Assembly (NCBI RefSeq): GCF_034479615.1
Contig: NZ_CP140255.1
Span: forward strand, 4,154,001-4,218,000
DNA length: 64,000 nt
Direction: 5' to 3'
Source: Vreelandella neptunia
GTDB lineage: Bacteria; Pseudomonadota; Gammaproteobacteria; Pseudomonadales; Halomonadaceae
Positions 37,855 to 55,183 of this stretch are shown here, piece by piece (positions within the stretch are counted from its first letter, which is position 1; each line of letters opens with the position of its first letter). The notes beneath the pieces are model-generated. The model did not search any database, was not told the origin of the DNA, and was given only the letters and a program-made list of their open reading frames with translations. The position numbers and the translations under genes were made by a program.

Positions 37855-37890
37855 CAGCGCCTGCTGCGGTACAGGCGCTGTTGTCGTTTT
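37855..37890 (+). terminator. Terminator of the feaR-like gene
   Basis: Stem CAGCGCCTG / CAGGCGCTG (37855-37863, 37872-37880) followed by TTGTCGTTTT. It lies between convergent feaR and feaB; the T-rich side serves the plus strand. Confidence 0.7.
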
Positions 37891-39379
37891 AGTAAGCGAT
37901 ACAAATGGACTTAAGCTTGGTATAGGAGTAGATCGCTTCCTGCCCAAACTCTTTACCAATGCCTGACTGTTTAAAGCCACCGAATGGCAGGCTGGGATCC
38001 AGGGTCACATGGGTGTTCACCCAAACGGTGCCCGCTTCAATCTCTGGCGTTAAGCGCATCGCTTCGGACAAACTCTCTGTCCATAGGCTGGCGGCTAGCC
38101 CCAGCTCGCTGTCGTTAACCATAGCCAGCGCCTCATTCACATCATCAAACGGAATCACTGTCAGGATCGGCCCAAACGCTTCCTCACGCACAATATCGAA
38201 CGTTTGCTTGGCGTCACTGATGATGACCGGCGAAACATAGAAGCCCTCTTCGGGCACCTGGACGCCGTAATGTACGTTGGCGCCCTGAGCTTTGGCGCGC
38301 TCAAGATGCTGCAGGATACTGCGCTGATGGCGTTGCGAAACCACAGGGTTGACCTGCGCCTGAGGATCCATACCTGGGCCTACAGACATCTGGTCAACCA
38401 CGCTGCGCAACCGGCTGCAGAATTCATCGTGCAGGCTACGGTGCACGTAAAAGCGTGACGCGGCGGCACACACCTGACCTTGATTAAGCAATCCGCCCAT
38501 GAGCGCACCGTTGACCGCTTTCTCGATATCCGCATCTGCCAACACCAGCATGGGGTTTTTGCCACCCAGCTCCAGCGAGAATGAGGCCATATGATCAACC
38601 GCGGCATGACCAATCACTTTACCCACCTCAGTACTGCCGGTGAAAGTGACTTTGTCCACATCCGCATGGCCCGCTAAATGCTGCCCCACCACCGAGCCTG
38701 ACCCCAGGATCACATTGAATACGCCCTTAGGCACACCCGCTTCAACGGCAAGTTCAGCCAGCCGAAGTACGGAAAGCGGAGTCTCAGAAGCAGGTTTTAC
38801 AACCACAGAGCATCCGGCGGCCAGCGCTGGGATCGCTTTCCACAGCGCTATCATCATGGGGAAATTCCACGGCACGATCGCAGCGACGACACCAACAGGC
38901 TGGCGGAGGGTATAGGCGTTAAAGTTAGCGCCTTCAGGCATGCCAATCGACACGTCGCCGGTCTTGCCTTCCAGCTTCGTGGTCCAGCCCGCCATGTAGC
39001 GGATAAAATCAACTGAAAAGCCGGCATCGACGGCCCTGGAGATATTGATCGACTTCCCTTGGTTGAGCGTTTCAATCTGGGCAAGCTCTTCGCTGTGCTG
39101 TTCAACGAGGTCAGCAAATTTAAGCAAAATGCGCTCCCGTTGCGCCGGGCTCATACCTCGCCAGCGCCGATCATCAAAGCTGCCCTTGGTGATAGCGACC
39201 GCTTCGTCTGCCAGCGCCACATCGCCCTGGGCCACCGTGCTTAATTGACTGCCATCCGCCGGGTTAATAATGGCAATAGGATTTCCCTGCTCACGAAATC
39301 CTCCATCAATGAAAGACCCACGGGCACGCTGTAAAAAAGCCTCTACGTCAGGTAACGCTACGATTAACTTATTAGTCAT
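37889..39379 (-). CDS. feaB: Phenylacetaldehyde (arylacetaldehyde) dehydrogenase, FeaB-like
   Basis: NAD-dependent aldehyde dehydrogenase, 496 residues, close to the E. coli FeaB length. It oxidises phenylacetaldehyde or 4-hydroxyphenylacetaldehyde to the acid. N-terminal and internal segments match FeaB closely (RERILLKFADLVEQHSEELAQIETLNQGKSI; VSRAH-like block). Catalytic features are GSTEVGK (NAD), ELGGKNP with the general-base Glu, and Cys in NQGQVCAAASR. I chose the ATG at 39379 (MTNKLIVALPDVEAFL) with AGAGGA 7 bases upstream. A TTG 36 bases earlier is not supported. The product would feed the homoprotocatechuate pathway 8 kb away. Confidence 0.87.
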   Translation of the reverse strand: MTNKLIVALPDVEAFLQRARGSFIDGGFREQGNPIAIINPADGSQLSTVAQGDVALADEAVAITKGSFDDRRWRGMSPAQRERILLKFADLVEQHSEELAQIETLNQGKSINISRAVDAGFSVDFIRYMAGWTTKLEGKTGDVSIGMPEGANFNAYTLRQPVGVVAAIVPWNFPMMIALWKAIPALAAGCSVVVKPASETPLSVLRLAELAVEAGVPKGVFNVILGSGSVVGQHLAGHADVDKVTFTGSTEVGKVIGHAAVDHMASFSLELGGKNPMLVLADADIEKAVNGALMGGLLNQGQVCAAASRFYVHRSLHDEFCSRLRSVVDQMSVGPGMDPQAQVNPVVSQRHQRSILQHLERAKAQGANVHYGVQVPEEGFYVSPVIISDAKQTFDIVREEAFGPILTVIPFDDVNEALAMVNDSELGLAASLWTESLSEAMRLTPEIEAGTVWVNTHVTLDPSLPFGGFKQSGIGKEFGQEAIYSYTKLKSICIAY

Positions 39380-39479
39380 ATCAAAATCCTCTTGATCAAT
39401 ATTCAAAACGCTCAACCAATGGATGGCATGTAGCCCTCACGTGGGCACTGCCACCCAAGTTCTCCTCGCGTTTGTTACC

Positions 39480-42902: not shown

Positions 42903-43985
42903 CTACTGATCTGACGCTTTCAGGCGTAGGTCTGGAACCTGCTCGTCAACCATTGCGGCAAGCGCCTCCGCCAAGGCGCGACGATCAATACCGTCGTCGC
43001 TATTGTCCATCCACTCGGTAGCGATACCGCGCGTCGCTGAGTTCATTTCCTGCCAAGCCGCATCGTCCAGGGTGATAATCGTATGCGCCGGGTCAGCTTC
43101 AATGCTGCTTCGAGCGTCGCTGATGGCCGCATCCCAGGCGCTGCCGAAGCGTTCGGAGAGCACCTCACCGCTGAGCGAGTCAAGCACCTCCCGCGCCTCA
43201 TCCGGCAAGCGGTCATAGCTGCGTTGATTCATCAACAGCGCCAGCACAGTCACGGTGGCAGTCGCCTGGTCGTCGGCATTTTCGGTGTGATAAAAAGTCA
43301 CTTCATTTAGCTTGGTCGGTGGCACCACTTCCCATCCGGCCGTAGCTCCATCGATAACGCCTTTGGCCAGCGTATCGGCGATCTGTGCGGGCGGCATGCT
43401 GACTGCTGAGGCCCCCATTTCATCGATAATCCTGGATGCCATACGCGTAGGCGATCTGAGCCGTTGGCCACTCATACTCTCAAGGTTACGAATTGGGGTT
43501 TCCCGCGTATGGAGCACGCTGCCACCATCACTGTGCACCGCTAAGACTTTATAATCTTCAAAGTCTTCCGCAGCGTGCTCTTGGGAGAACTGCCAGGCAA
43601 TGCGGCTCGCTTCAACGCCACCAGAAGGCAGTACAAAAGGCAGTTCCATCGCCTCGCTGCGAGGGAAACGACCAGCGGAGTACCCCAACGCCGTCCATGC
43701 GATATCAACCACGCCGTTACGAACGGTATCGGCAAGCTGGGCGGGCGTTCCCCCCAGTTGCATTGAGGGGTATATCTGACAGCGCAGCTCACCCTCAGAT
43801 TGGGCCTCAAGATCTTCGCACCATGGTTCAATGACCTGCTGCTGAGCATTCGACATAGCAGGCAAGAAATGCATGATTCTTAAGGTTGTTGCCGCTTGAG
43901 CGGGCAGCGACGCGGCCATGGAAGCCACCACAGCTACGCCAAGGCTGAGACGTAGGCGACGGGGCAGGAACGGGGATTGAGGCAT
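42903..43985 (-). CDS. TRAP transporter periplasmic solute-binding protein, DctP-like (second system)
   Basis: Periplasmic receptor, 360 residues, with signal peptide (RRLRLSLGVAVVASMAASLPAQA-A). The ligand-carboxylate arginine is likely in LESMSGQRLRSPTRMASRIIDEMGA. I chose the ATG at 43985 (MPQSPFLPRR) with GGAGAAAG. First gene of the operon. Upstream are two AT-rich palindromes that resemble the operator-like motif of the hpa promoter region. This suggests joint control and an aromatic-acid ligand, inferred. Confidence 0.88.
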   Translation of the reverse strand: MPQSPFLPRRLRLSLGVAVVASMAASLPAQAATTLRIMHFLPAMSNAQQQVIEPWCEDLEAQSEGELRCQIYPSMQLGGTPAQLADTVRNGVVDIAWTALGYSAGRFPRSEAMELPFVLPSGGVEASRIAWQFSQEHAAEDFEDYKVLAVHSDGGSVLHTRETPIRNLESMSGQRLRSPTRMASRIIDEMGASAVSMPPAQIADTLAKGVIDGATAGWEVVPPTKLNEVTFYHTENADDQATATVTVLALLMNQRSYDRLPDEAREVLDSLSGEVLSERFGSAWDAAISDARSSIEADPAHTIITLDDAAWQEMNSATRGIATEWMDNSDDGIDRRALAEALAAMVDEQVPDLRLKASDQ

Positions 43986-44049
43986 GACTTTCTCCATTAC
44001 TTATTATAGATACCAGAGGTTTATTGGGGTGGTCACTGCTAAATCATCA

Positions 44050-44071
44050 TTTTGTTAATATATAAACAAAA
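44050..44071. promoter_or_regulatory. Palindrome upstream of the second TRAP operon (site 1)
   Basis: TTTTGTT / AACAAAA arms (44050-44056, 44065-44071) enclosing a core TTAAT-at-ATAAA. The core differs at one position from the TTAAT-NN-ATTAA motif found three times before hpaF. It lies 65 bases before the dctP start. Confidence 0.5.
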
Positions 44072-44115
44072 ATAAGTGAGAGCGGGAAGCCATCCGTTAG
44101 TCGTAGACAATTAAA

Positions 44116-44139
44116 ATATTGTTAATATTTTAACAATAT
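44116..44139. promoter_or_regulatory. Perfect 10-bp palindrome upstream of the second TRAP operon (site 2)
   Basis: ATATTGTTAA-TATT-TTAACAATAT. The core TTAAT-at-TTTAA is one mismatch from the hpaF-region motif. Likely a repressor or activator site; HpaR is a candidate. Confidence 0.55.
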
Positions 44140-44186
44140 CACAATCAACATCTTTAAAATAATCTAACGATGCCCCTTAAACGTGA

Positions 44187-44213
44187 AGGAGCCAGCGCTT
44201 AGCGCTGGCTCCT
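44187..44213. other. GC-rich perfect palindrome at the left edge of the IS30-family element
   Basis: AGGAGCCAGCGCT-T-AGCGCTGGCTCCT, 13-bp arms and a one-base loop. The outer two bases on the right may belong to the insertion element. Before insertion it would have been the hairpin past the monooxygenase gene on the minus strand, perhaps its terminator (weak T-tail CCTTCACGTTT). Confidence 0.7.
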
Positions 44214-45311
44214 GGATTCAACTAGTAAGTGCAGCACCTGCGGTTTCTAGTGCTCCTAAGTATTCGCCTAAGAACACCTGCGCTGGGGTTCGGTATCCCA
44301 GTCGCTTCCTTGGTCTATCGTTTAGCTTATTGACGACACTTCGTAGCTCGGCATTGGTCACTTTGCGAAAGTCAGTACCTTTAGGAAAATACTGCCTAAT
44401 CAGACCATTGGTGTTTTCATTAGTACCACGCTGGCATGAGCGGTACGGGTCGCAAAAATAGGTCTTAGCCGAGACGGCCTTGGCAACTTTCCGGTGCTCA
44501 GCGAATTCCGACCCATTATCCAAAGTGATGGAGTGCACTGCCCCTCGGCGTGGTGCCAATAACCGCGTCATTGCCTGAGCCGTTCTAGTGGCGGTGATTG
44601 TTGGCAGCCGCGCTGCCAAGAGGTAGCCACTGCGTCTTTCGACCAGGGTCACCAGTCCAGATTCTTTGTGGCCCTTAAGCACCGTGTCGCCTTCCCAATG
44701 GCCGATATGGCGCCGTTCTTCCACCTTGGCAGGGCGCTGCTCAATGCCTACTCGGTGCGGGATTTTGCCTAACCCCGCCCGCTTAGCCAATTGGCGCTGA
44801 TAGCGCCGCTGGCGTGGCAGTCGGAGCCGTTTCCATAAGGTTCCACCGTGCTTCTTGTCGTCCCAGATTAACGCATAGATCCATTGATGGCTTACGCAGA
44901 CCCCGTTGGCATTGGCCATGAAGCCACTGATTTGCTGAGGGCTCCATTCGTCCATCAATTGGTCAGTGACCCAGCGAATCAGGCTGGGCAGCCGCTTCGT
45001 CACTTTCCAGGCAGTGCGTCGACGCTGATCACTTGCCGATTGAGCCTGTTCAGGCGCATAACCACTGGTCAGACCGTTGCGCTTTATCTCGCGACTAATG
45101 GTACTGCTATGGACACCAATCGCCTTAGCTATCTTTCGCTGGCTAATGCCGGTCTCAAGATAGGCAAAAATTTGGTATCGTTGGCTCTGGGTCAGTTGTC
45201 GGTATCCCATGCTCTGCTTCACTTTGGTAGGTAAGGCAGAGAGGGTACCGGCGCTGACCCTCCTGCCTCTACCTTGTGGTCCAAAGTGCTGCGGTTATTC
45301 TATGAATCCAG
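44212..45311 (-). mobile_element. Intact IS30-family insertion sequence
   Basis: About 1.1 kb with one full transposase. Imperfect terminal repeats start CTGGATTCA at the left and end TGAATCCAG at the right. Over 27 positions read inward from TGGATTCA, 20 match, including the blocks TGGATTCA and GCAGCAC. With these ends the flanks give a possible 4-base duplication GCTC (44208-44211, 45312-45315). If the ends are one base further out, the duplication is CT, as is more usual for the family. It separates the monooxygenase gene from the second TRAP operon. Confidence 0.88.
44218..45222 (-). CDS. IS30-family transposase
   Basis: DDE transposase, 334 residues, apparently intact. The N-terminal HTH is LTQSQRYQIFAYLETGISQRKIAKAIGVHSSTISREIKRN. 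The catalytic aspartates are in HWEGDTVLKGH and TLDNGSEFAEH, and the glutamate is in GTNENTNGLIRQYFPKG. The stop codon falls inside the left terminal repeat. The start is GTG at 45222 (MKQSMGYRQL) or ATG at 45210; the first matches the family N-terminus. There is no frameshift or internal stop, so the element may be active. Confidence 0.92.
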   Translation of the reverse strand: MKQSMGYRQLTQSQRYQIFAYLETGISQRKIAKAIGVHSSTISREIKRNGLTSGYAPEQAQSASDQRRRTAWKVTKRLPSLIRWVTDQLMDEWSPQQISGFMANANGVCVSHQWIYALIWDDKKHGGTLWKRLRLPRQRRYQRQLAKRAGLGKIPHRVGIEQRPAKVEERRHIGHWEGDTVLKGHKESGLVTLVERRSGYLLAARLPTITATRTAQAMTRLLAPRRGAVHSITLDNGSEFAEHRKVAKAVSAKTYFCDPYRSCQRGTNENTNGLIRQYFPKGTDFRKVTNAELRSVVNKLNDRPRKRLGYRTPAQVFLGEYLGALETAGAALTS

Positions 45312-45345
45312 GCTCACAGGCGGGATCATTCTGAGCGGCTACTAT

Positions 45346-47232
45346 TCATACGCCAACGGTGAAGATGGGTTTAAAGAAAGCGGCGAGCTCTTCGGTGGCC
45401 GATAGCGGCAGAACATGGGCCACATATTGATCAGGGCGAACCACTACCACGGCACCATGACGGTCAATGCTACGCGCACTGAAAATATCGTCGTCCGGGA
45501 GACACCCGAAAACATTTTCTAAATTGACCAGCGCAAAGGGGCCGACTTCCGGCTTGAAAGCTTCAGGCACCCGTGTGATATCAATCTCCTCGTGCGGCTG
45601 CTGATAGATCACCTTGACATCAAACCAGGTACTCACGCCCTCAGTCTGCGGCGCCACCTGCAGCGGCGATTGTGGTGACGTCTTCAACCACGTGGCAAAT
45701 TCATCGATGGCCGAAGGCGTATCGACTGCCGCTGAGTCGGCAAATACATACAGACGCCAGCGCCCATCGGCTTCAGCCAGATGCCCCAGCTGCAGCGGGT
45801 TAGCGTCACACACTCGGATCGCTGGCGCCGACTTAAAGCGTTTGCCGACTGGAAACCCAGCGGCAAGGGCTTGATAGGTTGTCTCCCCAATGATCATCGA
45901 TGGCTGATATTCCGTCATAAAGCCAGCGGGGAACTCAATGGTCCGCATGTAGAAATCTTCCAGCTCGGACGGGTCTTCAAACTCCTCCGGGCGCTTGGCC
46001 ATCATCGACGACCACTGTTTATCAAAGTCGATTAAGTTTTTAGCCACCACCTGGCGCTCGGCGGAGTAGGTAGATAACAGGCTGGCGGGGCTGACGCCGG
46101 TCAATACATGGCCTAGCTTCCAACCTAGGTTGAAACCATCCTGCATGGAAACATTCATGCCCTGCCCGGCCTTGGCACTGTGGGTGTGGCAGGCATCGCC
46201 AGTAATGAAAACCCGGGGCAGGCGACCAGCATCCGGATTCTCGACGTCATCGAAGCGGTCACTGAGGCGATGCCCCACTTCGTAAACGCTGTGCCAGGCC
46301 ACATGGCGTACATCCAGTTGGTAGGGGTGCATGATTTCATTGGCTTTGGCGATGATGGTGTCAATCGGCGTTTCGCGCACTTTATTGCTGCCATCCGCCG
46401 GCACTTCACCGAGATCCACGTACATTCTGAACAAGTGACCACCTTCGCGGGGAATAAGTAGAATACTGCCCCCCGAGTGCGACTGAATGGCACATTTCGT
46501 ACGGATATCGGGAAAGTCGGTGACCGCCAGTACATCCATGACCCCCCAGGCATGATTCGCCTGATCACCCGCCAGGGTGCAACCAATAGCTGAGCGTACA
46601 CCGCTGCGCGCCCCATCACACCCGACTACGTATTTAGCCCGTACCGTTCGGCTAAGCCCCTCCTGCTCACCCGCGGTATGGCGTAACGTCACCGTGACCG
46701 GGTACTCATCATTTTCAGCGATATGCAGGCTATCAAAAGCAAAACCATAATCGGGACGAATGCGCGCAGGCCCGTTCATGGCGGCTTCGGCGAGATAATC
46801 AAGCACCCTTGCCTGATTAACGATTAGGTGAGGAAACTCGCTAATACCCGCAGGATCGTCAGGGGTACGCGCGGTGCGCGTAATGCAAGTCGGCTGACTG
46901 ATATCCGGCTTCCAAAACGCCATCTCGGTGATGCGATAGGCTTCGGCAGTGATGCGATCAGCAAAACCAAAGGCTTGAAATGTTTCAACGCTGCGCGCCT
47001 GAATGCCATCTGCATGCCCAATTTCAAGTCGCCCCGCCCGTCTTTCGACAATGCGCGTTGTTACCTCGGGGAATTGAGCCAGCTGGGCCGCCATAATCAT
47101 GCCAGCAGGCCCGGTGCCCACAATCAGTACATCCACTTCCTCAGGCAGCGATGCCGCACGGCTTACACCGCTACCCGCTGCAGGTTTGATACGTGGGTCG
47201 TGGGAAACATAGCCATAGTGGTGGAACTGCAT
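45346..47232 (-). CDS. MobA-like flavin aromatic monooxygenase (3-hydroxybenzoate 4-monooxygenase family)
   Basis: Single-component FAD/NAD(P)H hydroxylase of phenolic acids, 628 residues. It has FAD motif VDVLIVGTGPAGMIMAAQLA, CDGARSGVRSAIG (the DG motif, where FAD and NAD(P)H meet) and FITGDACHTHSAKAGQGMNVSMQDGFNLGWKL. A C-terminal thioredoxin-like dimerisation domain follows, ending VVVRPDQYVAHVLPL. The N-terminus MQFHHYGY and many later blocks recall Comamonas MobA, which para-hydroxylates 3-hydroxybenzoate to protocatechuate. I chose the ATG at 47232 with GAGG 8 bases upstream. It is divergent from the hpa genes, and no HpaBC is present. It may therefore make homoprotocatechuate from 3- or 4-hydroxyphenylacetate, but the substrate is inferred. 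Confidence 0.85.
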   Translation of the reverse strand: MQFHHYGYVSHDPRIKPAAGSGVSRAASLPEEVDVLIVGTGPAGMIMAAQLAQFPEVTTRIVERRAGRLEIGHADGIQARSVETFQAFGFADRITAEAYRITEMAFWKPDISQPTCITRTARTPDDPAGISEFPHLIVNQARVLDYLAEAAMNGPARIRPDYGFAFDSLHIAENDEYPVTVTLRHTAGEQEGLSRTVRAKYVVGCDGARSGVRSAIGCTLAGDQANHAWGVMDVLAVTDFPDIRTKCAIQSHSGGSILLIPREGGHLFRMYVDLGEVPADGSNKVRETPIDTIIAKANEIMHPYQLDVRHVAWHSVYEVGHRLSDRFDDVENPDAGRLPRVFITGDACHTHSAKAGQGMNVSMQDGFNLGWKLGHVLTGVSPASLLSTYSAERQVVAKNLIDFDKQWSSMMAKRPEEFEDPSELEDFYMRTIEFPAGFMTEYQPSMIIGETTYQALAAGFPVGKRFKSAPAIRVCDANPLQLGHLAEADGRWRLYVFADSAAVDTPSAIDEFATWLKTSPQSPLQVAPQTEGVSTWFDVKVIYQQPHEEIDITRVPEAFKPEVGPFALVNLENVFGCLPDDDIFSARSIDRHGAVVVVRPDQYVAHVLPLSATEELAAFFKPIFTVGV

Positions 47233-47363
47233 AATATCTACCTCGTAAACGTGATGGCTTGGCATTTTTCTATACTGGATCAGGCAAACACTCGTGAGGA
47301 TGTGTTTTACACAGCCTTCATTGTACTTTTCATAAATACCCCACCTACCTTAGTCGACAACCA

Positions 47364-47375
47364 TTAATAAATTAA
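47364..47375. promoter_or_regulatory. Operator-like motif TTAAT-NN-ATTAA, copy 1
   Basis: TTAAT-aa-ATTAA, perfect 5-bp arms, in the 438-base divergent region between the monooxygenase and hpaF. Copy 2 begins exactly 21 bases later, two helical turns. Its position 130 bases before the monooxygenase start suggests control of that promoter. Confidence 0.55.
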
Positions 47376-47384
47376 AAAATATTG

Positions 47385-47396
47385 TTAATCTATTAA
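47385..47396. promoter_or_regulatory. Operator-like motif TTAAT-NN-ATTAA, copy 2
   Basis: TTAAT-ct-ATTAA, within GTTAATCTATTAAT. It shares a 14-base pattern GTTAAT-NN-ATTAAT with copy 3 at the hpaF promoter. Confidence 0.6.
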
Positions 47397-47540
47397 TACA
47401 ATTCACAGCGGCAGTGTTAAAAAACCATCTACAAGAGATGGAGGTCTATGTCTTCGTGCTAAAAAAGGAGTCCGTGAATTTTCAATTTTCGCTCTCTTGG
47501 CTATACAAAAGGCTATGCGAAAGGCTATGTAAAATTCATC

Positions 47541-47570
47541 TTGACAGGCGCCTTTATTTTTTCGTTAATA
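47541..47570 (+). promoter_or_regulatory. Sigma70-type promoter of the hpa operon
   Basis: Consensus -35 box TTGACA (47541-47546). A -10 candidate GTTAAT (17-base spacer) or TTAATA (18-base spacer) lies at 47564-47570. The operator-like palindrome overlaps the -10 box. The leader to hpaF would be about 95 bases. The rest of 47233-47670 is AT-rich with no gene. Confidence 0.65.
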
Positions 47571-47582
47571 CATTAATGAAAA
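47559..47582. promoter_or_regulatory. Operator-like palindrome over the hpaF -10 box, copy 3
   Basis: TTTTCGTTAAT-AC-ATTAATGAAAA, 11-bp arms with one mismatch, containing TTAAT-ac-ATTAA (47565-47576). The size, symmetry and promoter overlap fit a MarR-family repressor. HpaR, encoded at the end of this cluster, is the obvious candidate. Confidence 0.65.
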
Positions 47583-47670
47583 TAAGCGTGTCATTTTAAA
47601 AACCACTGCGCTACTCAGGTCAGACTGCTTCTATGCGCTAGATAGCCCAGTATTTTCAAGGAGTTACAAC

Positions 47671-48054
47671 GTGCCACACCTGCATATCGAGTATTCGCCC
47701 GAGGTGGCAACACTGGTTAACGTACAAGATGTATGCCTGGCCGCCCACAAGGCAATGAAAGAGAGCGGTATTTTTCCTATCGCGGGTATCCGGGTACGCG
47801 CCTTCGCCGCAGACCACTGCATCGTTGCCGATGACCACCCCGACAACAATTTTATGGCCATGACGCTCTCTGTGGGCGCAGGCCGAGAACGGAGTGCGCT
47901 TAAAGCTGCCGGCGACCTGGTGTTTGCAGGCGTACAGCAAGCTCTGGCCCAGCCGCTCGCCACGCCCTACTTCGCCTTATCACTGGAAATCCGCGAAATC
48001 AGCGCCGATTTGAGTTGGAAAGACACGCCTATTCACTCCCGACTGTCGTCATAA
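47671..48054 (+). CDS. hpaF: 5-carboxymethyl-2-hydroxymuconate delta-isomerase
   Basis: Isomerase of the homoprotocatechuate meta-cleavage path, 127 residues, of the tautomerase superfamily. It should act through an N-terminal proline exposed after Met removal: PHLHIEYSPEV matches the family start. It works after HpaE, shifting the double bond before decarboxylation. A GTG start with AAGGAG 7 bases upstream is clear. It is first in the operon, downstream of a TTGACA promoter, and followed by hpaE after 14 bases. Confidence 0.9.
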   Translation: MPHLHIEYSPEVATLVNVQDVCLAAHKAMKESGIFPIAGIRVRAFAADHCIVADDHPDNNFMAMTLSVGAGRERSALKAAGDLVFAGVQQALAQPLATPYFALSLEIREISADLSWKDTPIHSRLSS

Positions 48055-48068
48055 CAGGAGCCTTCACT

Positions 48069-49577
48069 ATGAGCACTTTGCAAGACAACATCGCCCGGGC
48101 GCAGCAGTATATGCAGCGCTTTAAAGAGCAAGGGGTACTCAACCACATCAACGGTGAGTCGGTACCCGCACAGTCGGGAGCCACCTTCGACACTATTTCT
48201 CCCGTTGACCTCAAGCCCTTAGCCAGCGTTGCCCGTGGTGGCAGCGAAGATATCGACCGCGCCGTCAAAGCCTCTCAGGAAGCCTTTAAAACCTGGAGTA
48301 AAACGCCAGGTAAAGAGCGCCGCGCTATTCTGATCAAGGTGGCCGAAGCCATCGAAGCCCGTGCAGAAGAGATCGCCTTCACGGAGTGCATGGATACCGG
48401 CCAAGCGCTGCGTTTTATGTCGAAGGCAGCTATTCGTGGTGCGGCTAATTTTCGCTACTTCGCAGACAAAGCCCCCGAGGCCGAGGATGGCCTGGCCCTG
48501 CGTAACGACACCCAAATGAACGTAACCTCCAAGCGCCCGCTTGGCCCAGTGGGAGTGATCACACCGTGGAACACGCCGTTTATGCTCTCCACCTGGAAGA
48601 TAGCGCCCGCCCTGGCGTCCGGCTGCACAGTGGTACACAAACCCGCCGAATTTTCGCCGATGACAGCCAAGCTGCTTGTTGAGATCGCAGAAGAAGCCGG
48701 GTTACCGAAGGGCGTACTCAATCTGGTCAATGGTTTCGGCGAGGACGCGGGTAAAGCGCTAACAGAGCACAAAGGCATCAAGGCAGTGGCCTTTGTGGGT
48801 GAAAGTCGCACCGGGCAAATGATCATGGCCCAGGCAGCTCCCACGCTGAAGCGCTTCCATTTCGAGCTCGGCGGTAAAAATCCTGTCATTATTTTTGACG
48901 ACGCGGATATTGAGCGTGCGATAGAAGCCGCCACCTTCATGATCTACTCGCTCAACGGTGAGCGCTGCACGTCCTCTTCACGCCTGTTGGTGCAAGACAC
49001 TATCTACGGCGAGGTCACTCGCCGCGTTGCCGACATCGCCAACAACGTCAAGGTCGGCCACCCTCTTGACCCGGACACCGTCGTCGGCCCGCTGATTCAC
49101 CCTGAGCACGAGAAAAAAGTGCTGTCCTATTTTGACAAGGCTCGCGCCCAAGGCGCCACCATTGCGGCCGGTGGCGAAAAGGTCGGCGAAGAGGGCTGCT
49201 TCGTGCGCCCAACGCTATTTACCCAGGCCAACAACGATATGGCCATCGCCCAGGAAGAGATTTTTGGCCCGGTGCTGACCGCCATTCCGTTCACAGACGA
49301 GGACGACGCTCTGCGCATCGCCAACGATACCGAGTACGGCCTGGCTGCCTACCTGTGGACCAATGGCCTCAACCGCGCCATGCGTTTAACCGATCAGCTT
49401 GAAGCCGGCATGATGTGGGTCAACTCCGAGAACGTGCGCCATTTGCCCGCACCCTTTGGTGGCGTTAAGTCCTCCGGCATTGGCAGGGACGGCGGGGACT
49501 GGTCTTTCGACTTTTATATGGAGACCGTCAACGTATCCTTCCCGCGCAAGGTGCATCAGGTTCCGAAACTCGGCTAA
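48069..49577 (+). CDS. hpaE: 5-carboxymethyl-2-hydroxymuconate-semialdehyde dehydrogenase
   Basis: NAD-dependent aldehyde dehydrogenase, 502 residues, oxidising the ring-cleavage semialdehyde to the dicarboxylic acid. NPVIIFDDADIER follows ELGGKNP, which holds the general-base Glu. The nucleophile Cys is in NGERCTSSSR. EEIFGPVLTAIPF and AAYLWTNGLNRAMRLT near the C-terminus are characteristic of HpaE. I chose the ATG at 48069 (MSTLQDNIARAQQYM) with AGGAG 9 bases upstream. The 54-base longer frame would run into hpaF. Confidence 0.93.
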   Translation: MSTLQDNIARAQQYMQRFKEQGVLNHINGESVPAQSGATFDTISPVDLKPLASVARGGSEDIDRAVKASQEAFKTWSKTPGKERRAILIKVAEAIEARAEEIAFTECMDTGQALRFMSKAAIRGAANFRYFADKAPEAEDGLALRNDTQMNVTSKRPLGPVGVITPWNTPFMLSTWKIAPALASGCTVVHKPAEFSPMTAKLLVEIAEEAGLPKGVLNLVNGFGEDAGKALTEHKGIKAVAFVGESRTGQMIMAQAAPTLKRFHFELGGKNPVIIFDDADIERAIEAATFMIYSLNGERCTSSSRLLVQDTIYGEVTRRVADIANNVKVGHPLDPDTVVGPLIHPEHEKKVLSYFDKARAQGATIAAGGEKVGEEGCFVRPTLFTQANNDMAIAQEEIFGPVLTAIPFTDEDDALRIANDTEYGLAAYLWTNGLNRAMRLTDQLEAGMMWVNSENVRHLPAPFGGVKSSGIGRDGGDWSFDFYMETVNVSFPRKVHQVPKLG

Positions 49578-49640
49578 TTAATGCCCGAGACGACACCTCT
49601 GGCTCACACCGCTTGTTTAGATGGTACATGGAGAAACACA

Positions 49641-50621
49641 ATGCCCACACCAGCCCCTAACTTATATCCTGAATTCAACATTATACGCTTAAGCCATGTT
49701 GTATTCGGCGTGACCGATCTGGCCAAGAGCCGCCACTTTTATGTGGATACGCTCGGCCTTCAGGTCACCGACGAAGACGACCAGCGCATCTATCTACGGG
49801 CCATGGAAGAGCGCGGCCACCATTGCATGGTGCTCGAAAAAAGCGCTGAAGCTAACGTTCAGGCGCTCTCTTTCAAGGTTTTTGATGAGAGCGAATTAGA
49901 CAAGGCGTACGCATGGTTTGAGCAGCAGGGTAAGCCCGTCGAGTGGGTAGAACGCCCCTATCAAGGTCGCACGCTGCGCACCGTGGACTGCTTTGACACC
50001 CCTATCGAGTTTTATTACCAGATGGAACGGCTAGCGCCTATCCATCAACAGTACGCTCTCTACCGGGGTGTCAAACCGCTACGCATCGACCACTTCAACC
50101 TGTTTTCTACCAGTGTCGATGACGCCGTGGCGTTCTATAACAGCATGGGATTCCGGGTCACTGAATATACCGAGGATGAAGAGAGCGGCAAGCTATGGGC
50201 GGCCTGGATGCATCGTAAGGGAGGTGTCCACGATATCGCCTTCACTAACGGTGAAGGCCCGCGCCTGCACCACACTGCATTCTGGGTGCCCACGCCACTC
50301 AATATCATCGATTTGTGCGACCTGATGGCCACCACCGGTTACGTCAGCAATATCGAACGTGGGCCCGGTCGCCACGGCATCTCCAATGCATTTTTCCTGT
50401 ACATCCTCGACCCGGATGGCCACCGCATCGAAATCTACTGCTCTGATTATCAGACCGTTGACCCGGATCTAGAACCAATCAAGTGGGACTTGAAAGACCC
50501 CCAGCGGCAAACGCTATGGGGGGCGCCAGCGCCGCGCTCCTGGTTTGAGCACGGCTCGCTGTTTAAGGGTGTCGAGACCAAAGCATCTCAGCTAAAGGCC
50601 ACGCCGATCATCGCCCCTTAA
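49641..50621 (+). CDS. 3,4-dihydroxyphenylacetate 2,3-dioxygenase, type I (VOC fold)
   Basis: Extradiol dioxygenase of the vicinal-oxygen-chelate superfamily, 326 residues in two tandem domains (about 14-130 and 148-270). It opens homoprotocatechuate next to the hydroxyls. Expected Fe(II)/Mn(II) ligands are His151 (RIDHFNLF), His210 (GPRLHHTAFW) and Glu264 (GHRIEIY). The acid-base His is in GRHGISNAFF. The pattern is that of Brevibacterium HPCD and Arthrobacter MndD. I chose the ATG at 49641 with GGAGA 7 bases upstream. A second, unrelated enzyme for the same reaction is encoded at 53434. I left the symbol empty because hpaD is best kept for that one. Confidence 0.88.
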   Translation: MPTPAPNLYPEFNIIRLSHVVFGVTDLAKSRHFYVDTLGLQVTDEDDQRIYLRAMEERGHHCMVLEKSAEANVQALSFKVFDESELDKAYAWFEQQGKPVEWVERPYQGRTLRTVDCFDTPIEFYYQMERLAPIHQQYALYRGVKPLRIDHFNLFSTSVDDAVAFYNSMGFRVTEYTEDEESGKLWAAWMHRKGGVHDIAFTNGEGPRLHHTAFWVPTPLNIIDLCDLMATTGYVSNIERGPGRHGISNAFFLYILDPDGHRIEIYCSDYQTVDPDLEPIKWDLKDPQRQTLWGAPAPRSWFEHGSLFKGVETKASQLKATPIIAP

Positions 50622-50691
50622 CAGCGCCTGGTTGCATCTTCCAGGTTTCGCAGCAAACGGCCCGGCTCAGCCGGGCCCAGGAGAATATGTC

Positions 50692-51582
50692 ATGAGTGCA
50701 CCCCTGCCCCCACGGCTGGCCGCTTTTCACGCTAATGGCGCGGATCGTTACGGCGTTGTTACCGCTGACGGGATCATTGATCTACTGCCAGAGTTTGGTC
50801 ATCGGTTCAAAGGTCTTAAAGAAGTTATTGAAGCGGGCGCGATCGACGAACTGTTGAACGCCGCAGAAGGCCGCCGCCCAAGCTATCGTGAAGAAGATGT
50901 CACTTATCTGATTCCCATCGCCAACCCTGAGAAACTGATCTGTGTCGGCGTTAATTTTCCGTCACGTAATGAAGAGTATAAAGACGGCCAGGCCGCCCCC
51001 AGCAAGCCTTCCTTGTTCATTCGCTTCCCGCGCAGTTTTGTCGGCCATCGCCAGAACCTGGTACGCCCTCCCGAGAGCGAGCAGCTCGACTATGAAGGTG
51101 AAGTGACCATCGTTATCGGCAAGGGCGGCCGGCGTATTTCAAAAGAGAAGGCTTACGAGCATATTGCCGCGCTTACCCTATGCAACGAGGGCACCATTCG
51201 TGATTGGGTACGACATGCCAAATTCAACGTCACCCAGGGGAAGAACTTTGACGCCACCGGCGCTATCGGGCCATGGCTGGTGCCGTTCCATAACGCCTCT
51301 CAGTTAGACGATATAGAGCTGACCACCCGGGTCAACGGCGAAGTACGCCAGAACGACCGCACCTCGCGCATGATGTTCGATTTTCGCTATATCGTGAACT
51401 ACGTCTCCACGTTTACCACCCTGGTGCCCGGCGACGTTATCGTCTGTGGTACGCCTACCGGCGCCGGTGCGCGCTTCGATCCCCCTATCTGGCTGAAGCC
51501 TGGCGATGTCATTGAGGTCGAAGCGGAAGGCATCGGCAAACTGGTCAACGGCGTGGAGGATGAGAAAAATGCCATTAACTGA
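50692..51582 (+). CDS. hpaG: Fumarylacetoacetase-family isomerase/decarboxylase of the Hpa pathway
   Basis: Single FAH domain, 296 residues. E. coli HpaG is about 430, with two such domains. In the pathway the family does OPET decarboxylation and/or HHDD isomerisation. Metal-site segments are EQLDYEGEVTIVIG and KNFDATGAIGPWLVP, with GDVIVCGTPTGAGARFDPP near the C-terminus. I chose the ATG at 50692 with GGAGA 8 bases upstream. The first 60 or so residues are a small N-terminal domain. It overlaps hpaH by 14 bases. Which half-reaction it performs is not certain. Confidence 0.85.
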   Translation: MSAPLPPRLAAFHANGADRYGVVTADGIIDLLPEFGHRFKGLKEVIEAGAIDELLNAAEGRRPSYREEDVTYLIPIANPEKLICVGVNFPSRNEEYKDGQAAPSKPSLFIRFPRSFVGHRQNLVRPPESEQLDYEGEVTIVIGKGGRRISKEKAYEHIAALTLCNEGTIRDWVRHAKFNVTQGKNFDATGAIGPWLVPFHNASQLDDIELTTRVNGEVRQNDRTSRMMFDFRYIVNYVSTFTTLVPGDVIVCGTPTGAGARFDPPIWLKPGDVIEVEAEGIGKLVNGVEDEKNAIN

Positions 51583-52366
51583 CGCCCAGATATCCGCTGC
51601 CGCCGAAGCACTTCTGGCGGCGGAAAAAAACCGCGAGCAGATCGGCCTACTGTCGCGCCAATATCCCGACATGACGCTGGATGATGCCTATGCCATCCAG
51701 GCGGCTCAGCTACAAAAAAAGACCGAGCATGACGTCATTGGCTGGAAAATCGGCCTGACTTCCAAGGTAATGCAGGATGCCCTGGGGATCGATACACCTG
51801 ATAGCGGCGTGCTGTATGACTACATGCGCTTTTCGACAGGGGCCGTGATTGCCAAGGATCACTTTATTCAACCCCGCATTGAAGCTGAAATAGCCTTCGT
51901 CATGAAAGCGCCCCTGGAAGGTGAAGTAACCCGAGAGGACGTGCTGGCGGCCACGGATTACGTTGTGCCCTCGCTGGAGATTCTGGATACGCGCATCGTT
52001 CGTCAGGATGCTGCTACCGGCCAGACACGCCTGATTGTCGATACGGTATCCGACAATGCGGCCAATGCGGGCATTGTGCTTGGCAACGAGCGTCACTTGC
52101 CGACGGCTTTTGACCTGCGCTGGGTGGGTGCCATCGTCAAGAAAGATGGCAACGTCGTGGCCACCGGCCTGGGAGCGGGCGTGCTGGACGATCCGGTAAC
52201 CGGGTTAGTCTGGCTGGCCCGCCGCATGGCCACTTATGGCCAACGTATTGAAGCAGGGCAAGTGGTGCTGTCGGGCTCTTTTATCGGCCCGGTGGAATGC
52301 CCTTCCGGCAGCGACATTGACGCCGACTTTGGCCCCTTTGGAACGGTGAAGCTGCGCTTCGATTAA
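51569..52366 (+). CDS. hpaH: 2-oxohept-3-ene-1,7-dioate hydratase
   Basis: Hydratase of the HpaH/MhpD family, 265 residues. It adds water to 2-oxohept-3-enedioate to give 4-hydroxy-2-oxoheptanedioate. Mg-site residues are expected in IQPRIEAEIAFVMK. Other family blocks are GWKIGLTSKVMQDALGI and LEILDTRIV. I chose the ATG at 51569 (MPLTDAQISAAAEALL) with GGAGG within the end of hpaG, so translation is coupled. It converges on hpaA, 22 bases away. Confidence 0.92.
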   Translation: MPLTDAQISAAAEALLAAEKNREQIGLLSRQYPDMTLDDAYAIQAAQLQKKTEHDVIGWKIGLTSKVMQDALGIDTPDSGVLYDYMRFSTGAVIAKDHFIQPRIEAEIAFVMKAPLEGEVTREDVLAATDYVVPSLEILDTRIVRQDAATGQTRLIVDTVSDNAANAGIVLGNERHLPTAFDLRWVGAIVKKDGNVVATGLGAGVLDDPVTGLVWLARRMATYGQRIEAGQVVLSGSFIGPVECPSGSDIDADFGPFGTVKLRFD

Positions 52367-52388: not shown

Positions 52389-53288
52389 TCACGACTGGCT
52401 AAGCTGATGGTGGCGGTAATTTGAGGGAGTGGTATCGGCATGACGAGCAAAGAAGCGACAAAAGTAGGCGGGATCCTGGAAGCCCAACTGGTAGCCAATC
52501 TCGTTGACGGTCATACCGGTAAAGGTCAGCATCCGGCGAGCTTCCTGCATCAGCCGCTCATGCACCAGCCGCTTACTGGGCACCCCAGCGATACGACGGC
52601 ACACGCTATTGAGCCGCGCCTCGGTCACGTTAAGGGCCGAGGCGTACGCCGACAGCGTCCAGTGCGCTTTGAAGTGGGCTTCGATTTCCAGATTGAAGCG
52701 GTGAAACAGCATCAGCTCGTCATGCCGTGCATGCTGCGCTTTGAGGGAGTTGGCCGAAAGCCGAAACAGGCTGATAAACAGCAACCGCGTCAGGGTCGTC
52801 AGCGCCACGTCACGCCCTTTACGCTCGGCAGCAAACTCCGCCCCCAGCTCATCGAAAAGCCGCTCAATGCGGGCAACCTCATGGCGGGCCTCCGAGCTGA
52901 CGTGGCCGGTGGCAACGCAAACGGGCGTAATCTGCCCAATACTGCCAAGGTCAGGGCACTCATCAAGCAGCGACCATACCAGTTGCTGGCGCACCGTCAG
53001 CACATGGCCATCGCTGCCCTCTTCGGTGGTGAACGAATGGGGAATTCCGGGCGGCGTCAAAAAGAACATCGGCCCTTGCTGATGATACTGCCGGTTATCC
53101 AGGTAAACCCTGACCATGCCGCTGTTGATGTAGTGCACCTGAAAAAAGCGGTCATGGTGGTGAACCGGCATGTTGCGCCCGAAGAAGTCAGCCATCGGCC
53201 TGAGGGCATCGTAATGCACCGCCGCGTCAGCATACCGCTGATCGTACTCCTGACCGATCGTGATATTGGGAATGGGGGTCAACGCCAT
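52389..53288 (-). CDS. hpaA: 4-hydroxyphenylacetate catabolism activator HpaA (AraC family)
   Basis: Transcription factor, 299 residues. The N-terminal cupin (about 35-100) has MPVHHHDRFFQVHYINSG and FFLTPPGIPHSFTTEEGSDGHVL, a metal-binding-like histidine set. The C-terminal HTH has LSAYASALNVTEARLNSVCRRIAGVPSKRLVHERL and VNEIGYQLGFQDPAYFCRFFARHADTTPSNYR. It is the only minus-strand gene in the hpa cluster. It converges on hpaH and is divergent from the type III dioxygenase gene, which it may activate. Confidence 0.9.
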   Translation of the reverse strand: MALTPIPNITIGQEYDQRYADAAVHYDALRPMADFFGRNMPVHHHDRFFQVHYINSGMVRVYLDNRQYHQQGPMFFLTPPGIPHSFTTEEGSDGHVLTVRQQLVWSLLDECPDLGSIGQITPVCVATGHVSSEARHEVARIERLFDELGAEFAAERKGRDVALTTLTRLLFISLFRLSANSLKAQHARHDELMLFHRFNLEIEAHFKAHWTLSAYASALNVTEARLNSVCRRIAGVPSKRLVHERLMQEARRMLTFTGMTVNEIGYQLGFQDPAYFCRFFARHADTTPSNYRHHQLSQS

Positions 53289-53337
53289 GTGTCTGCTCCT
53301 GGGTGGGCGCGTCTTAACCCTAAACGCTGTTCATATA

Positions 53338-53349
53338 TTAACAAACTAA
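53338..53349. promoter_or_regulatory. Degenerate operator-like motif between hpaA and the type III dioxygenase
   Basis: TTAAC-aa-ACTAA, two mismatches from TTAAT-NN-ATTAA, in the 145-base divergent promoter region. Support is weak but the place is right. Confidence 0.3.
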
Positions 53350-53433: not shown

Positions 53434-54288
53434 ATGGGCGAAATTGTTTTAGCCGCCAAGGTGACCCATGTCCCTTCGATGTACCTATCCGAACAGCCTG
53501 GCCAACACCACGGCTGCCGGGCTGAGGCCATTGCCGGGCACAAGGAGATCGGCCGTCGCGCCCGCGAATTAGGCGCAGACGTTGCGCTGGTGTTCGATAC
53601 CCACTGGCTGGTCAACAGTGGGTATCACATTAACTGCAGCAATCACTTTGAAGGTATCTATACCAGCAACGAACTGCCCCACTTTATTCAAGACATGGCC
53701 TACAACTACGCAGGCTGCCCCGACCTCGGCGAGCTGATCGCCACGGAAGCGAACCGCTCAGACATTCGTACCATGGCGCACAATATCAAAAGCCTGAAGC
53801 TTGAGTACGGCACCCTGGTACCTATGCGCTATATGCACATGGGAGTCCCTGAGGAGCAGGCGCTCAAAGTGGTGTCGATTGCGGCCTGGGATGCCTGGCA
53901 CGACCTGAATGAAAGCATCAAATTTGGCGAAGCCATACGCCGCGCCATCAAGGTCAGCAATCACAACGTCATGGTGTTGGCCTCAGGGTCTCTTTCCCAC
54001 CGCTTTAGTGATAACAGCGATGCAATGGAAAACATGCACCGCTGGACGCGTGAATTTGACCGCCAGATGGATATACGTGTGGTTGAGATGTGGCGGCAGG
54101 GGCACTTCAAAGAATTCCGCACCATGCTGCCGGAATATGCCCAGCACTGCTACGGCGAAGGCGGTATGCATGATACCGCCATGCTGCTTGGCGTATTAGG
54201 CGAAGAGTACGACACGCCTGCCGAAATACTCACTGAGCCTTTTGGCAGTTCTGGCACCGGCCAAATCAACGCGATCTTTCCCCTTTAG
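53434..54288 (+). CDS. hpaD: 3,4-dihydroxyphenylacetate 2,3-dioxygenase, type III (LigB fold)
   Basis: Extradiol dioxygenase of the LigB superfamily, 284 residues, colinear with E. coli HpaD/HpcB. Shared blocks are [62 protein letters not shown] and [10 protein letters not shown]. Iron ligands are expected from the N-terminal His in THVPSM and the His in DTHWLV, plus a Glu. AGAGGA is 8 bases before the ATG. It starts a second transcription unit (hpaD, hpaI, gabD-like, hpaR). It is unrelated in fold to the dioxygenase at 49641, though the expected reaction is the same. Confidence 0.92.
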
Positions 54289-54370: not shown

Positions 54371-55183
54371 ATGGAGATACCTACCAATACGTTCAAGCAG
54401 GCGTTAGCCAATAATGAGCCGCAAATTGGTCTATGGCTGGGGCTAGCCAATGGATACTGTGCGGAGCTCTCTGCCAATGCGGGCTTCGACTGGCTATTAA
54501 TCGACGGCGAGCATGCCCCCAACGACCTGCGCACAATACTGGCTCAGCTGCAGGCCGTCGCGCCTTACCAAGCTCACCCCATCGTGCGTCCGCCGGTCGG
54601 CGACACCGCGCTGATCAAGCAGTATCTGGATATCGGCGTACAAACGCTATTGATCCCCATGGTCGATAGCGCCGAACAGGCCCGCGAGTTGGTACGTGCC
54701 ACTCGCTATCCGCCAGAAGGCATTCGCGGCGTCGGCAGTGCACTGGCACGCGCTTCGCGCTGGAACAGCATCCCCGGCTACCTGGATAAAGCGGATAACG
54801 AAATCTGCCTGTTAGTACAGATCGAAACCCAGGAAGGCCTTAAGCACCTTGATGAAATTGCCGCCGTCGAAGGGGTGGATGGGGTGTTCCTCGGCCCCGC
54901 CGACCTCAGCGCATCCCTAGGGCATCGCGGTAACCCGGGTCACGAAACGGTGCAAAACGCCATTGAAGACGCCATCCAGCGCATTCAGCAGTCAGGCAAA
55001 GCGGCCGGCATTTTATCGGCAGACCGCCAGCTCGCAGCACGCTATCTAACCTTAGGTTGCACCTTTGTCGCCGTCGGCGTCGACACCAGCGTCTTGATGA
55101 ACTCACTGAAAGCGTTGGCCAGCAGCTTTAAAGACGACGGTGATACCGCACCAGCGGCGGCCACGCCCCCGTCGGTTTACTAA
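54371..55183 (+). CDS. hpaI: 4-hydroxy-2-oxoheptanedioate aldolase
   Basis: Class II metal-dependent aldolase, 270 residues, splitting 4-hydroxy-2-oxoheptanedioate into pyruvate and succinic semialdehyde. Family marks are [14 protein letters not shown] (catalytic His), [25 protein letters not shown] (metal Glu) and [15 protein letters not shown] (metal Asp). I chose the ATG at 54371 ([12 protein letters not shown]) with AGGAGA 9 bases upstream. A longer frame overlapping hpaD was rejected. The last 15 residues are a low-complexity Ala/Pro tail. The next gene consumes its succinic semialdehyde. Confidence 0.93.

Follow-up and report, generated by a model that had tools for sequence, protein, structure and literature searches.

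A MobA-like flavoprotein monooxygenase as candidate single-component 4-hydroxyphenylacetate 3-hydroxylase beside the hpa genes of Vreelandella neptunia

The homoprotocatechuate (3,4-dihydroxyphenylacetate) meta-cleavage genes of Vreelandella neptunia raise the question of how they are supplied with their substrate. They lie in a 64,000-nucleotide stretch of contig NZ_CP140255.1 (positions 4,154,001 to 4,218,000; hereafter the window, within which positions are counted from its first letter), together with a divergently oriented gene for a flavin adenine dinucleotide (FAD) monooxygenase resembling MobA, a 3-hydroxybenzoate 4-monooxygenase. We consider it likely that this gene encodes a single-component class A flavoprotein 4-hydroxyphenylacetate 3-hydroxylase that replaces the two-component HpaBC. 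We infer substrate, ring position, cofactor use and regulation alike, the substrate role from genomic context and distribution. Very probably in this halomonad, and probably in many Micrococcaceae, the step that leads into homoprotocatechuate is carried out by such an enzyme in place of HpaBC, and its likely substrate is 4-hydroxyphenylacetate.

The monooxygenase, its active site and the absence of HpaBC

The monooxygenase gene occupies positions 45346-47232 on the minus strand (628 codons), exactly where the sequence-only reading of this DNA had placed it. Homologues align from the methionine at 47232, giving a protein of 628 amino acids (aa) that we refer to as P0001; the mechanical open reading frame (ORF) starts at 47265, and the frame ends at 45346. 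P0001 scored 1013.3 bits against the NCBIfam profile PRK08294 (phenol 2-monooxygenase; cut-off 560), and the only Pfam domains reported for it were FAD_binding_3 (PF01494, 214.8 bits, residues 32-403) and a C-terminal Phe_hydrox_dim (PF07976, 160.8 bits, residues 440-624), with no HpaB_N (PF11794). Both the domain order and the PRK08294 score place it in the phenol hydroxylase/MobA subgroup of the class A flavoprotein monooxygenases. The closest solved structure was that of MobA from Comamonas testosteroni (2dkh, 635 bits). Since 306 of 621 aligned residues (49%) are identical to it, the fold of P0001 is hardly in doubt, and the earlier description of a single-chain FAD hydroxylase resembling MobA was borne out.

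In MobA, Asp75 and Tyr271 contact the phenol, His135 and Lys247 contact the carboxylate, Leu258 and Ile260 provide stacking, His120 sits at the tunnel mouth and Tyr317 lies against the flavin, as described in the available portion of PMC3546652. With the exception of His120, all of these residues are conserved in P0001 and in its 80 best-matching loci. Across that same set, which forms an hpa-linked clade, His120 is replaced by Thr, Ala, Ser or Gly; Asn256-Val257 on the substrate strand has become Ser-Ile (N256S, V257I). The gene of another halomonad, G144, retains Asn256. A further comparison found 97 positions that are fixed across the clade (83 sequences) and differ in both MobA and the distant homologue L181. 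Because the MobA contacts to phenol and carboxylate are kept, the pocket would be expected to take a phenol with an acid side chain, in a slightly reshaped form; the sequence does not tell which acid.

The sequence-only reading had MobA hydroxylating para to the phenol, which is mistaken: the names of substrate and product imply hydroxylation at C4 of 3-hydroxybenzoate, a position ortho to the hydroxyl group and para to the acid group. Ortho-hydroxylation is the normal reaction of the phenol hydroxylase group. Attack of the MobA type would therefore yield homoprotocatechuate from both 3-hydroxyphenylacetate (at C4) and 4-hydroxyphenylacetate (at C3), and, ortho-hydroxylation being normal for the family, the 4-isomer would need no new chemistry, only a different seating of the side chain. 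The earlier proposal had been that the enzyme either accepts 3-hydroxyphenylacetate or has changed position to accept the 4-isomer; the 4-isomer is favoured by genomic context, and the change of position falls away because attack is ortho already. There is fungal precedent for para-substituted phenols being hydroxylated ortho to the hydroxyl group, by PhhA of A. niger (4-hydroxybenzoate) and by TvMNX4 (p-coumarate), according to the available portion of PMC12915361.

The proposed mechanism would run as follows. The His/Lys pair that binds the carboxylate in MobA would hold the acid side chain, and the Asp/Tyr pair would hold the phenol; NAD(P)H would reduce the bound FAD, and a C4a-hydroperoxyflavin would then hydroxylate the ring at the position ortho to the phenol. 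Homoprotocatechuate, the product, would enter the pathway encoded by the adjacent hpa meta-cleavage genes.

That pathway is well represented in the window. Using NCBIfam/TIGRFAM profiles with curated cut-offs, plus Pfam, we found HpaD (of two kinds), HpaE and HpaI over their cut-offs, as well as HpaA and succinate-semialdehyde dehydrogenase (SSADH); HpaH fell 2.7 bits short, and HpaF and HpaG matched below theirs. The absence of hpaBC from the window, remarked on in the sequence-only reading, extends to the entire host genome (4.95 Mb, one contig, 99.99% complete), in which HpaB_N had no match; as a control, the same search gave matches in six of 14 genomes, E. coli included. We also considered PF08028, the fold of the Acinetobacter C2-type 4-hydroxyphenylacetate hydroxylase, which matched nine host proteins. 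Six of these had acyl-CoA dehydrogenase-type families as their best match (none over a curated cut-off) and one further protein was judged by eye to be an acyl-CoA dehydrogenase, and these were rejected; the check thus covered seven of the nine, the remaining two being 560 and approximately 600 aa long.

The monooxygenase gene and hpaF (start 47671, plus strand) diverge across 438 bp (47233-47670), and the idea that they share a regulatory region was supported by alignment of the window with eight of nine halomonad loci (L006 was left out), which revealed conserved blocks throughout this set. One block, TTGTACTTTTCATAAAT (47321-47337), lies near the monooxygenase start, differs by no more than two changes across the nine sequences of the alignment and has a single match in the window. 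Two operator-like palindromes match the pattern GTTAATNNRTKAA, namely GTTAATCTATTAA on the monooxygenase side (47384-47396, plus strand) and GTTAATACATTAA on the hpaF side (47564-47576, plus strand), just downstream of a TTGACA box. A third lies between hpaA and the LigB-type hpaD (53330-53342, minus strand) and is an independent match, because the pattern was drawn from the other two. These three matches compare with 0.06 expected in the 64-kb window, and all are at hpa promoters. Strict matches occur in the monooxygenase-hpaF region of seven of the nine halomonad loci (the exceptions being L006 and L007), and at the third site in only L001 and L006 among the other halomonad loci. The conserved region and the palindrome copies support the view that the monooxygenase gene and hpaF are controlled together, via a putative operator.

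Relatives, their neighbourhoods and their distribution

A protein search of the genome collection returned 221 loci, the best 80 of which comprised nine from halomonads (76-98% identical to P0001) and 71 from actinobacteria, nearly all Arthrobacter and its kin (71-74%). The gene is divergent from hpaF and beside hpa genes in all nine halomonad loci. Within the fetched stretches, hpa genes accompany the monooxygenase in 31 of the 71 actinobacterial loci, and a number of the 40 loci counted as lacking them may do so falsely because several of the stretches were short; the neighbours in two loci lacking hpa genes (L010 and L020) gave no pathway clue. The actinobacterial gene order is SSADH-hpaI-hpaH-hpaD-hpaE-gntR-hpaG, with the monooxygenase divergent beside hpaG in most. 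The hpa proteins encoded there are just 32-52% identical to those of the window, compared with 71-74% for the monooxygenase, which therefore moved separately from the hpa genes. In all, pairing with hpa genes was seen in halomonads, Arthrobacter and its kin, Gordonia and Rhodococcus.

A third arrangement was found in the halomonad G144, where a relative of 64% identity is embedded in a run on a single strand, hpaE-hpaG-hpaH-hpaI-(monooxygenase)-hpaD-SSADH-hpaR. Divergent from this run are genes for an aldehyde dehydrogenase and for a thiamine-diphosphate enzyme whose nearest family is indolepyruvate decarboxylase, at 478 bits against a cut-off of 946, and there was no HpaB match in the genome. 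The G144 cluster can plausibly be read as a route from tyrosine through 4-hydroxyphenylacetate to homoprotocatechuate. On plasmid pTC2 of Paenarthrobacter aurescens TC1, the gene is found with hpa genes, an annotated phenylacetaldehyde dehydrogenase and a copper/primary-amine oxidase, and on a plasmid of Rhodococcus NBC_00297 with hpa genes, an aldehyde dehydrogenase and, again, a copper/primary-amine oxidase; both neighbourhoods read as putative tyramine routes. Such neighbours are not general: the fetched stretches hold a close relative (at least 71%) of the TC1 phenylacetaldehyde dehydrogenase in eight of the best 80 loci. Tyrosine or tyramine would be turned into 4-hydroxyphenylacetate by the neighbouring genes of some relatives, and on genomic context the 4-isomer is a better candidate substrate than the 3-isomer; some activity on 3-hydroxyphenylacetate is likely, as a secondary one.

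A tree of 111 proteins was built by a quick method. The tool flagged that long branches meet in it, which leaves the deeper nodes uncertain. A branch (SH-like approximate likelihood ratio test, SH-aLRT, 99) sets the halomonad sequences off on one side, next to the actinobacterial sequences, with G144 just outside (88). MobA falls outside this clade on the long branches of the tree and joins L181, far off, and P0001 joins the halomonads and actinobacteria. The hpa-linked and unlinked actinobacterial genes are interleaved and therefore probably encode the same enzyme. Halomonad homologues of approximately 50% identity (L098-L114) had no hpa genes in their short flanks and were set aside as a different group; six of them seen in wider stretches (L161-L166) had no hpa genes save weak paralogue matches.

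We scanned 151 genomes of the host's family, noting that the co-occurrence tests here and below ignore shared ancestry. HpaE exceeded its cut-off in 22 genomes, HpaB_N in four, and a relative of at least 64% identity was present in 13. All 13 of the latter have HpaE, with the gene beside or inside the hpa genes (Fisher p 2.5e-13), and HpaB over cut-off was found in none of the 22 HpaE genomes. None of the four HpaB halomonads (G016, G037, G010 and G117; loci L081-L084) has HpaE over cut-off, and their HpaB may therefore serve another purpose or yield homoprotocatechuate that accumulates. In diverged hpa clusters from two other genera of the halomonad family (L169, L171, L173 and L177, of genomes G028, G026, G067 and G004, respectively), HpaE is 46-60% identical to that of the window, and these genomes have neither HpaB over cut-off nor a close relative of the monooxygenase.

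The second family sampled was that of Arthrobacter sp. C2 (G199), which is taken to be the Micrococcaceae (149 genomes; a relative here being a match at E 1e-100 or better). A relative was present in 138 genomes (56-75% identity among the matches listed), HpaD over cut-off in 135 and HpaB_N over cut-off in 42. The relative and HpaD occurred together in 132 genomes, the relative alone in six, HpaD alone in three and neither in eight (Fisher p 9e-8). The three HpaD genomes without a relative (G490, G568 and G584) all have HpaB, in two cases within 8 kb of HpaD, and HpaB over cut-off is missing from 96 of the 132 genomes with both relative and HpaD. Within 20 kb of HpaD, a relative was found in 53 genomes, HpaB in 10 and both in none; in G613, which has HpaB 3.6 kb from HpaD, the relative has an in-frame stop.

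Beyond the two family scans, a class-wide sample of 274 genomes contained, besides the host, only four matches, at 46-50%. The presence of relatives in 13 of 151 halomonads and 138 of 149 Micrococcaceae, together with the lack of close class-wide relatives, therefore suggests transfer of the gene from actinobacteria to halomonads, a direction that we infer.

Published phenotypes can be set beside this distribution, as given in the available portions of three papers. Halomonas neptunia, H. alkaliantarctica, H. sulfidaeris and Halomonas sp. HTB24 convert 4-hydroxyphenylacetate to 3,4-dihydroxyphenylacetate, and other Halomonas make homogentisate instead (PMC8058095). Vreelandella neptunia HM116 (L002) carries the gene and hpa genes and has no HpaB match. 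Arthrobacter Rue61a can use 4-hydroxyphenylacetate, homoprotocatechuate and tyrosine for growth and does not grow on 3-hydroxybenzoate (PMC3534580). For Arthrobacter arilaitensis Re117, homoprotocatechuate genes and tyrosine use are reported, and a 4-hydroxyphenylacetate 3-monooxygenase gene was not located (PMC2991359). For Rue61a and Re117 the comparison is one of phenotype alone.

The hpa cluster and other features of the window

Beyond the shared regulatory region, the hpa cluster begins on the plus strand with hpaF, a 5-carboxymethyl-2-hydroxymuconate isomerase-like gene (47671-48054; NF011605, 76 bits, below the cut-off of 215) with a homologue beside the monooxygenase gene in all nine halomonad loci. 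It is followed on the same strand by hpaE, for 5-carboxymethyl-2-hydroxymuconate semialdehyde dehydrogenase (48069-49577; TIGR02299, 752.6 bits, cut-off 638), an hpaD of the VOC (glyoxalase-fold) kind (49581-50621; TIGR02295, 423.9 bits, cut-off 321), a gene for an hpaG-like fumarylacetoacetate hydrolase-family protein (50632-51582; PF01557; TIGR02303, 179.8 bits, below the cut-off of 276) and hpaH, for 2-oxohept-4-ene-1,7-dioate hydratase (51575-52366; TIGR02312, 348.8 bits). The minus strand carries hpaA, for an AraC-type regulator of 4-hydroxyphenylacetate catabolism (52389-53288; TIGR02297, 395.8 bits, cut-off 275), after which the plus strand resumes with a second, unrelated hpaD of the LigB kind (53434-54288; TIGR02298, 435 bits, cut-off 316), hpaI, for 4-hydroxy-2-oxoheptanedioate aldolase (54371-55183; TIGR02311, 422.9 bits, cut-off 369), and the SSADH gene (55239-56690; NF008415, 833.9 bits, cut-off 828). 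The cluster therefore holds two unrelated homoprotocatechuate 2,3-dioxygenases, each over its own cut-off. Among the fetched halomonad stretches, both kinds occur in L001, L002, L007 and L008, the VOC kind alone in L003, L004, L005 and L009, and the LigB kind alone in L006.

On the other side of the monooxygenase gene lie a phenylacetaldehyde dehydrogenase-like gene of the FeaB/StyD type (37889-39415, minus strand; best family NF045735, 616 bits, below the cut-off of 850), a homologue of which (at least 73%) is near the monooxygenase gene in eight of the nine halomonad loci, and a gene for the AraC-type regulator FeaR (36899-37846, plus strand; NF007243, 309 bits, cut-off 199). A tripartite ATP-independent periplasmic (TRAP) solute-binding protein, DctP (42903-43997, minus strand; PF03480), possibly serves uptake of the substrate acid, and a homologue is near the gene in six of the nine halomonad loci. 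Upstream of the TRAP genes, at 44000-44200, are AT-rich palindromes resembling the operator (GTTAAAATATTAAC and the TTTATATATTAACAAA stretch), also present in L001; in L006, a strict operator match occurs at 12103, immediately ahead of the TRAP genes there.

An operon running from the monooxygenase through the TRAP and porin genes to feaB was considered and is disfavoured by a palindrome, GAGCCAGCGCTAAGCGCTGGCTC, identified by eye 3' of the monooxygenase gene in the close relative L001; as this palindrome could terminate transcription, the monooxygenase gene is probably its own transcription unit. The palindrome is uninterrupted in L001, and in the window a transposable element (44211-45312) sits inside it. 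The element, which we take to be IS30-like, has 27-nt imperfect inverted ends and, at 44218-45222, a frame for a transposase that carries HTH_38 and rve domains. Elsewhere in the host genome, two intradiol dioxygenase-like genes (L151 and L152, at G000:C1:4656980 and 4663621) lie 6.6 kb apart with identical scores, suggesting a recent duplication.

Substrate, rival readings and known systems

The new entry step in the place of HpaBC that the sequence-only reading envisaged is supported by the HpaB-free genome, the recurrent pairing with hpa genes and the shared promoter region, all of which point to a predicted function. We lean towards a wider account as well, in which the Micrococcaceae would rely chiefly on the single-component enzyme for 3-hydroxylation of 4-hydroxyphenylacetate, and its gene would be the one missing from their tyrosine/homoprotocatechuate pathway. 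It would have spread to halomonads unaccompanied by hpa genes and been wired there, under a shared operator, into a separately evolved hpa cluster, replacing HpaBC.

A number of observations weigh against assigning the enzyme to 4-hydroxyphenylacetate. Its carboxylate anchors are identical to those of MobA and do not discriminate 3-hydroxybenzoate from the hydroxyphenylacetates, and the host genome carries a protocatechuate 3,4-dioxygenase (pcaH over cut-off with a second match adjoining, approximately 517 kb from the monooxygenase gene), a possible sink for a 3-hydroxybenzoate role. No copper amine oxidase was found in the host genome, and an amine oxidase of the TC1 type accompanies the gene in just three of the best 80 loci (L055, L068 and L076). 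The clade is missing from nine of the 22 HpaE halomonads, which all belong to two other genera. Of these nine, six have a 44-45% homologue alone and three have neither this homologue nor HpaB over cut-off, so that other entries exist; seven ORFs scanned beside the hpa genes in two such genomes included no hydroxylase. The H. neptunia strain phenotyped in print may be another than HM116, and two further species for which 3,4-dihydroxyphenylacetate formation is reported were not recognised among the matches.

The actinobacterial counts add to this side of the balance. Six of the 138 Micrococcaceae with a relative lack HpaD over cut-off, 41 have at least two relative matches, and 36 of the 132 genomes with relative and HpaD also have HpaB, which is not significantly rarer when the relative is near HpaD (11/53 vs 25/79, p 0.23). 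Seven genomes (G199, G478, G509, G521, G582, G604 and G610) keep the relative with HpaB within 15 kb of HpaD, the HpaB of G521 being in pieces, and the two enzymes may therefore not be simple substitutes. Among the 31 hpa-linked actinobacterial genomes of the best 80 loci, 21 have HpaB over cut-off somewhere in the genome (one match being a 44-residue piece) and 10 do not; HpaB over cut-off was likewise found in six of 10 further actinobacterial genomes and in none of the nine halomonads from those loci. In actinobacteria with both enzymes, the monooxygenase and HpaB may overlap in function or each take a different isomer.

Such a division would suit an alternative that we regard as improbable, that the enzyme is a 3-hydroxyphenylacetate 4-hydroxylase, acting at the MobA position on a substrate with one more methylene and feeding the same hpa genes, the 4-isomer being handled otherwise. 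The MobA residues holding the phenol and carboxylate of a meta-isomer are indeed all kept. Against it stand the 96 Micrococcaceae that combine relative and HpaD without HpaB, though the group is reported to use tyrosine or 4-hydroxyphenylacetate (available portions of PMC2991359 and PMC3534580), and the neighbourhoods that would generate the 4-isomer. The amine oxidase and aldehyde dehydrogenase genes near some relatives could instead mean that the enzyme acts one step earlier or on a related phenol (tyramine, tyrosol, 4-hydroxyphenylacetaldehyde or 4-hydroxyphenylpyruvate), with the side chain oxidised after hydroxylation, and Halomonas HTB24 is credited with converting tyrosol to hydroxytyrosol in a title cited in PMC8058095. 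The His135/Lys247 carboxylate pair, unchanged in every member checked, fits an acid, and we hold this second possibility to be decidedly unlikely.

That the gene encodes an ordinary MobA, converting 3-hydroxybenzoate to protocatechuate for the chromosomal pca genes and adjoining the hpa genes by accident, strikes us as very unlikely, despite the 49% identity, the common active-site residues and the pca matches in the host. The pca genes are distant, and the hpa pairing recurs with hpa proteins of 32-52% identity and inside an operon in the third arrangement. The clade also stands apart from MobA, albeit on long branches, with its 97 fixed differences including N256S and V257I, and Arthrobacter Rue61a, considered here by phenotype alone, grows on 4-hydroxyphenylacetate and not on 3-hydroxybenzoate (available portion of PMC3534580). 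Finally, it is extremely unlikely that the hpa genes receive ready-made homoprotocatechuate (from dopamine, hydroxytyrosol or similar) with no need of a hydroxylase and an unrelated monooxygenase beside them, for although FeaB and FeaR could serve dopamine as well as tyramine and three of the 22 HpaE halomonads have neither enzyme, the conserved shared promoter region, the operator-like sites and the repeated pairing speak against it.

If the enzyme is indeed a 4-hydroxyphenylacetate 3-hydroxylase, a textbook entry reaction of aromatic catabolism would have another, unrelated solution, and a simpler one than HpaBC because no separate reductase is needed. It would give a function to a protein with relatives in 138 of the 149 sampled Micrococcaceae, and would fill a gap in print, the 4-hydroxyphenylacetate 3-monooxygenase gene of A. 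arilaitensis (available portion of PMC2991359). A one-protein, catechol-forming hydroxylase accepting phenylacetates could also help to make hydroxytyrosol-type compounds. The enzyme family is known; as far as listings of open-licence literature tell (titles and abstract openings), no single-component hydroxyphenylacetate hydroxylase of the MobA/phenol hydroxylase family was found there, nor this role for the family.

Compared with known systems, the window enzyme would share with HpaBC its reaction and its position in the pathway, but HpaB belongs to the PF11794 family and works with a separate flavin reductase, HpaC, whereas the window enzyme is one FAD protein. With the C2-type 4-hydroxyphenylacetate hydroxylase of Acinetobacter baumannii the window enzyme would likewise share its reaction; the C2-type enzyme has an acyl-CoA dehydrogenase fold and two components, unlike the single-chain window enzyme. 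Nearer in family are the fungal 4-hydroxybenzoate 3-hydroxylase PhhA, which clusters with phenol hydroxylase and MobA, and the p-coumarate 3-hydroxylase TvMNX4, which is 38.6% identical to phenol hydroxylase (available portion of PMC12915361). These differ in origin and in their benzoate and cinnamate substrates. MobA itself is alike in fold family, length, Phe_hydrox_dim domain, the Asp75/Tyr271 and His135/Lys247 pairs and the expected ortho-hydroxylation; the window enzyme differs from it in half of the aligned residues, in its separate clade, in the substitutions at positions 120, 256 and 257, and in its place beside the hpa genes.

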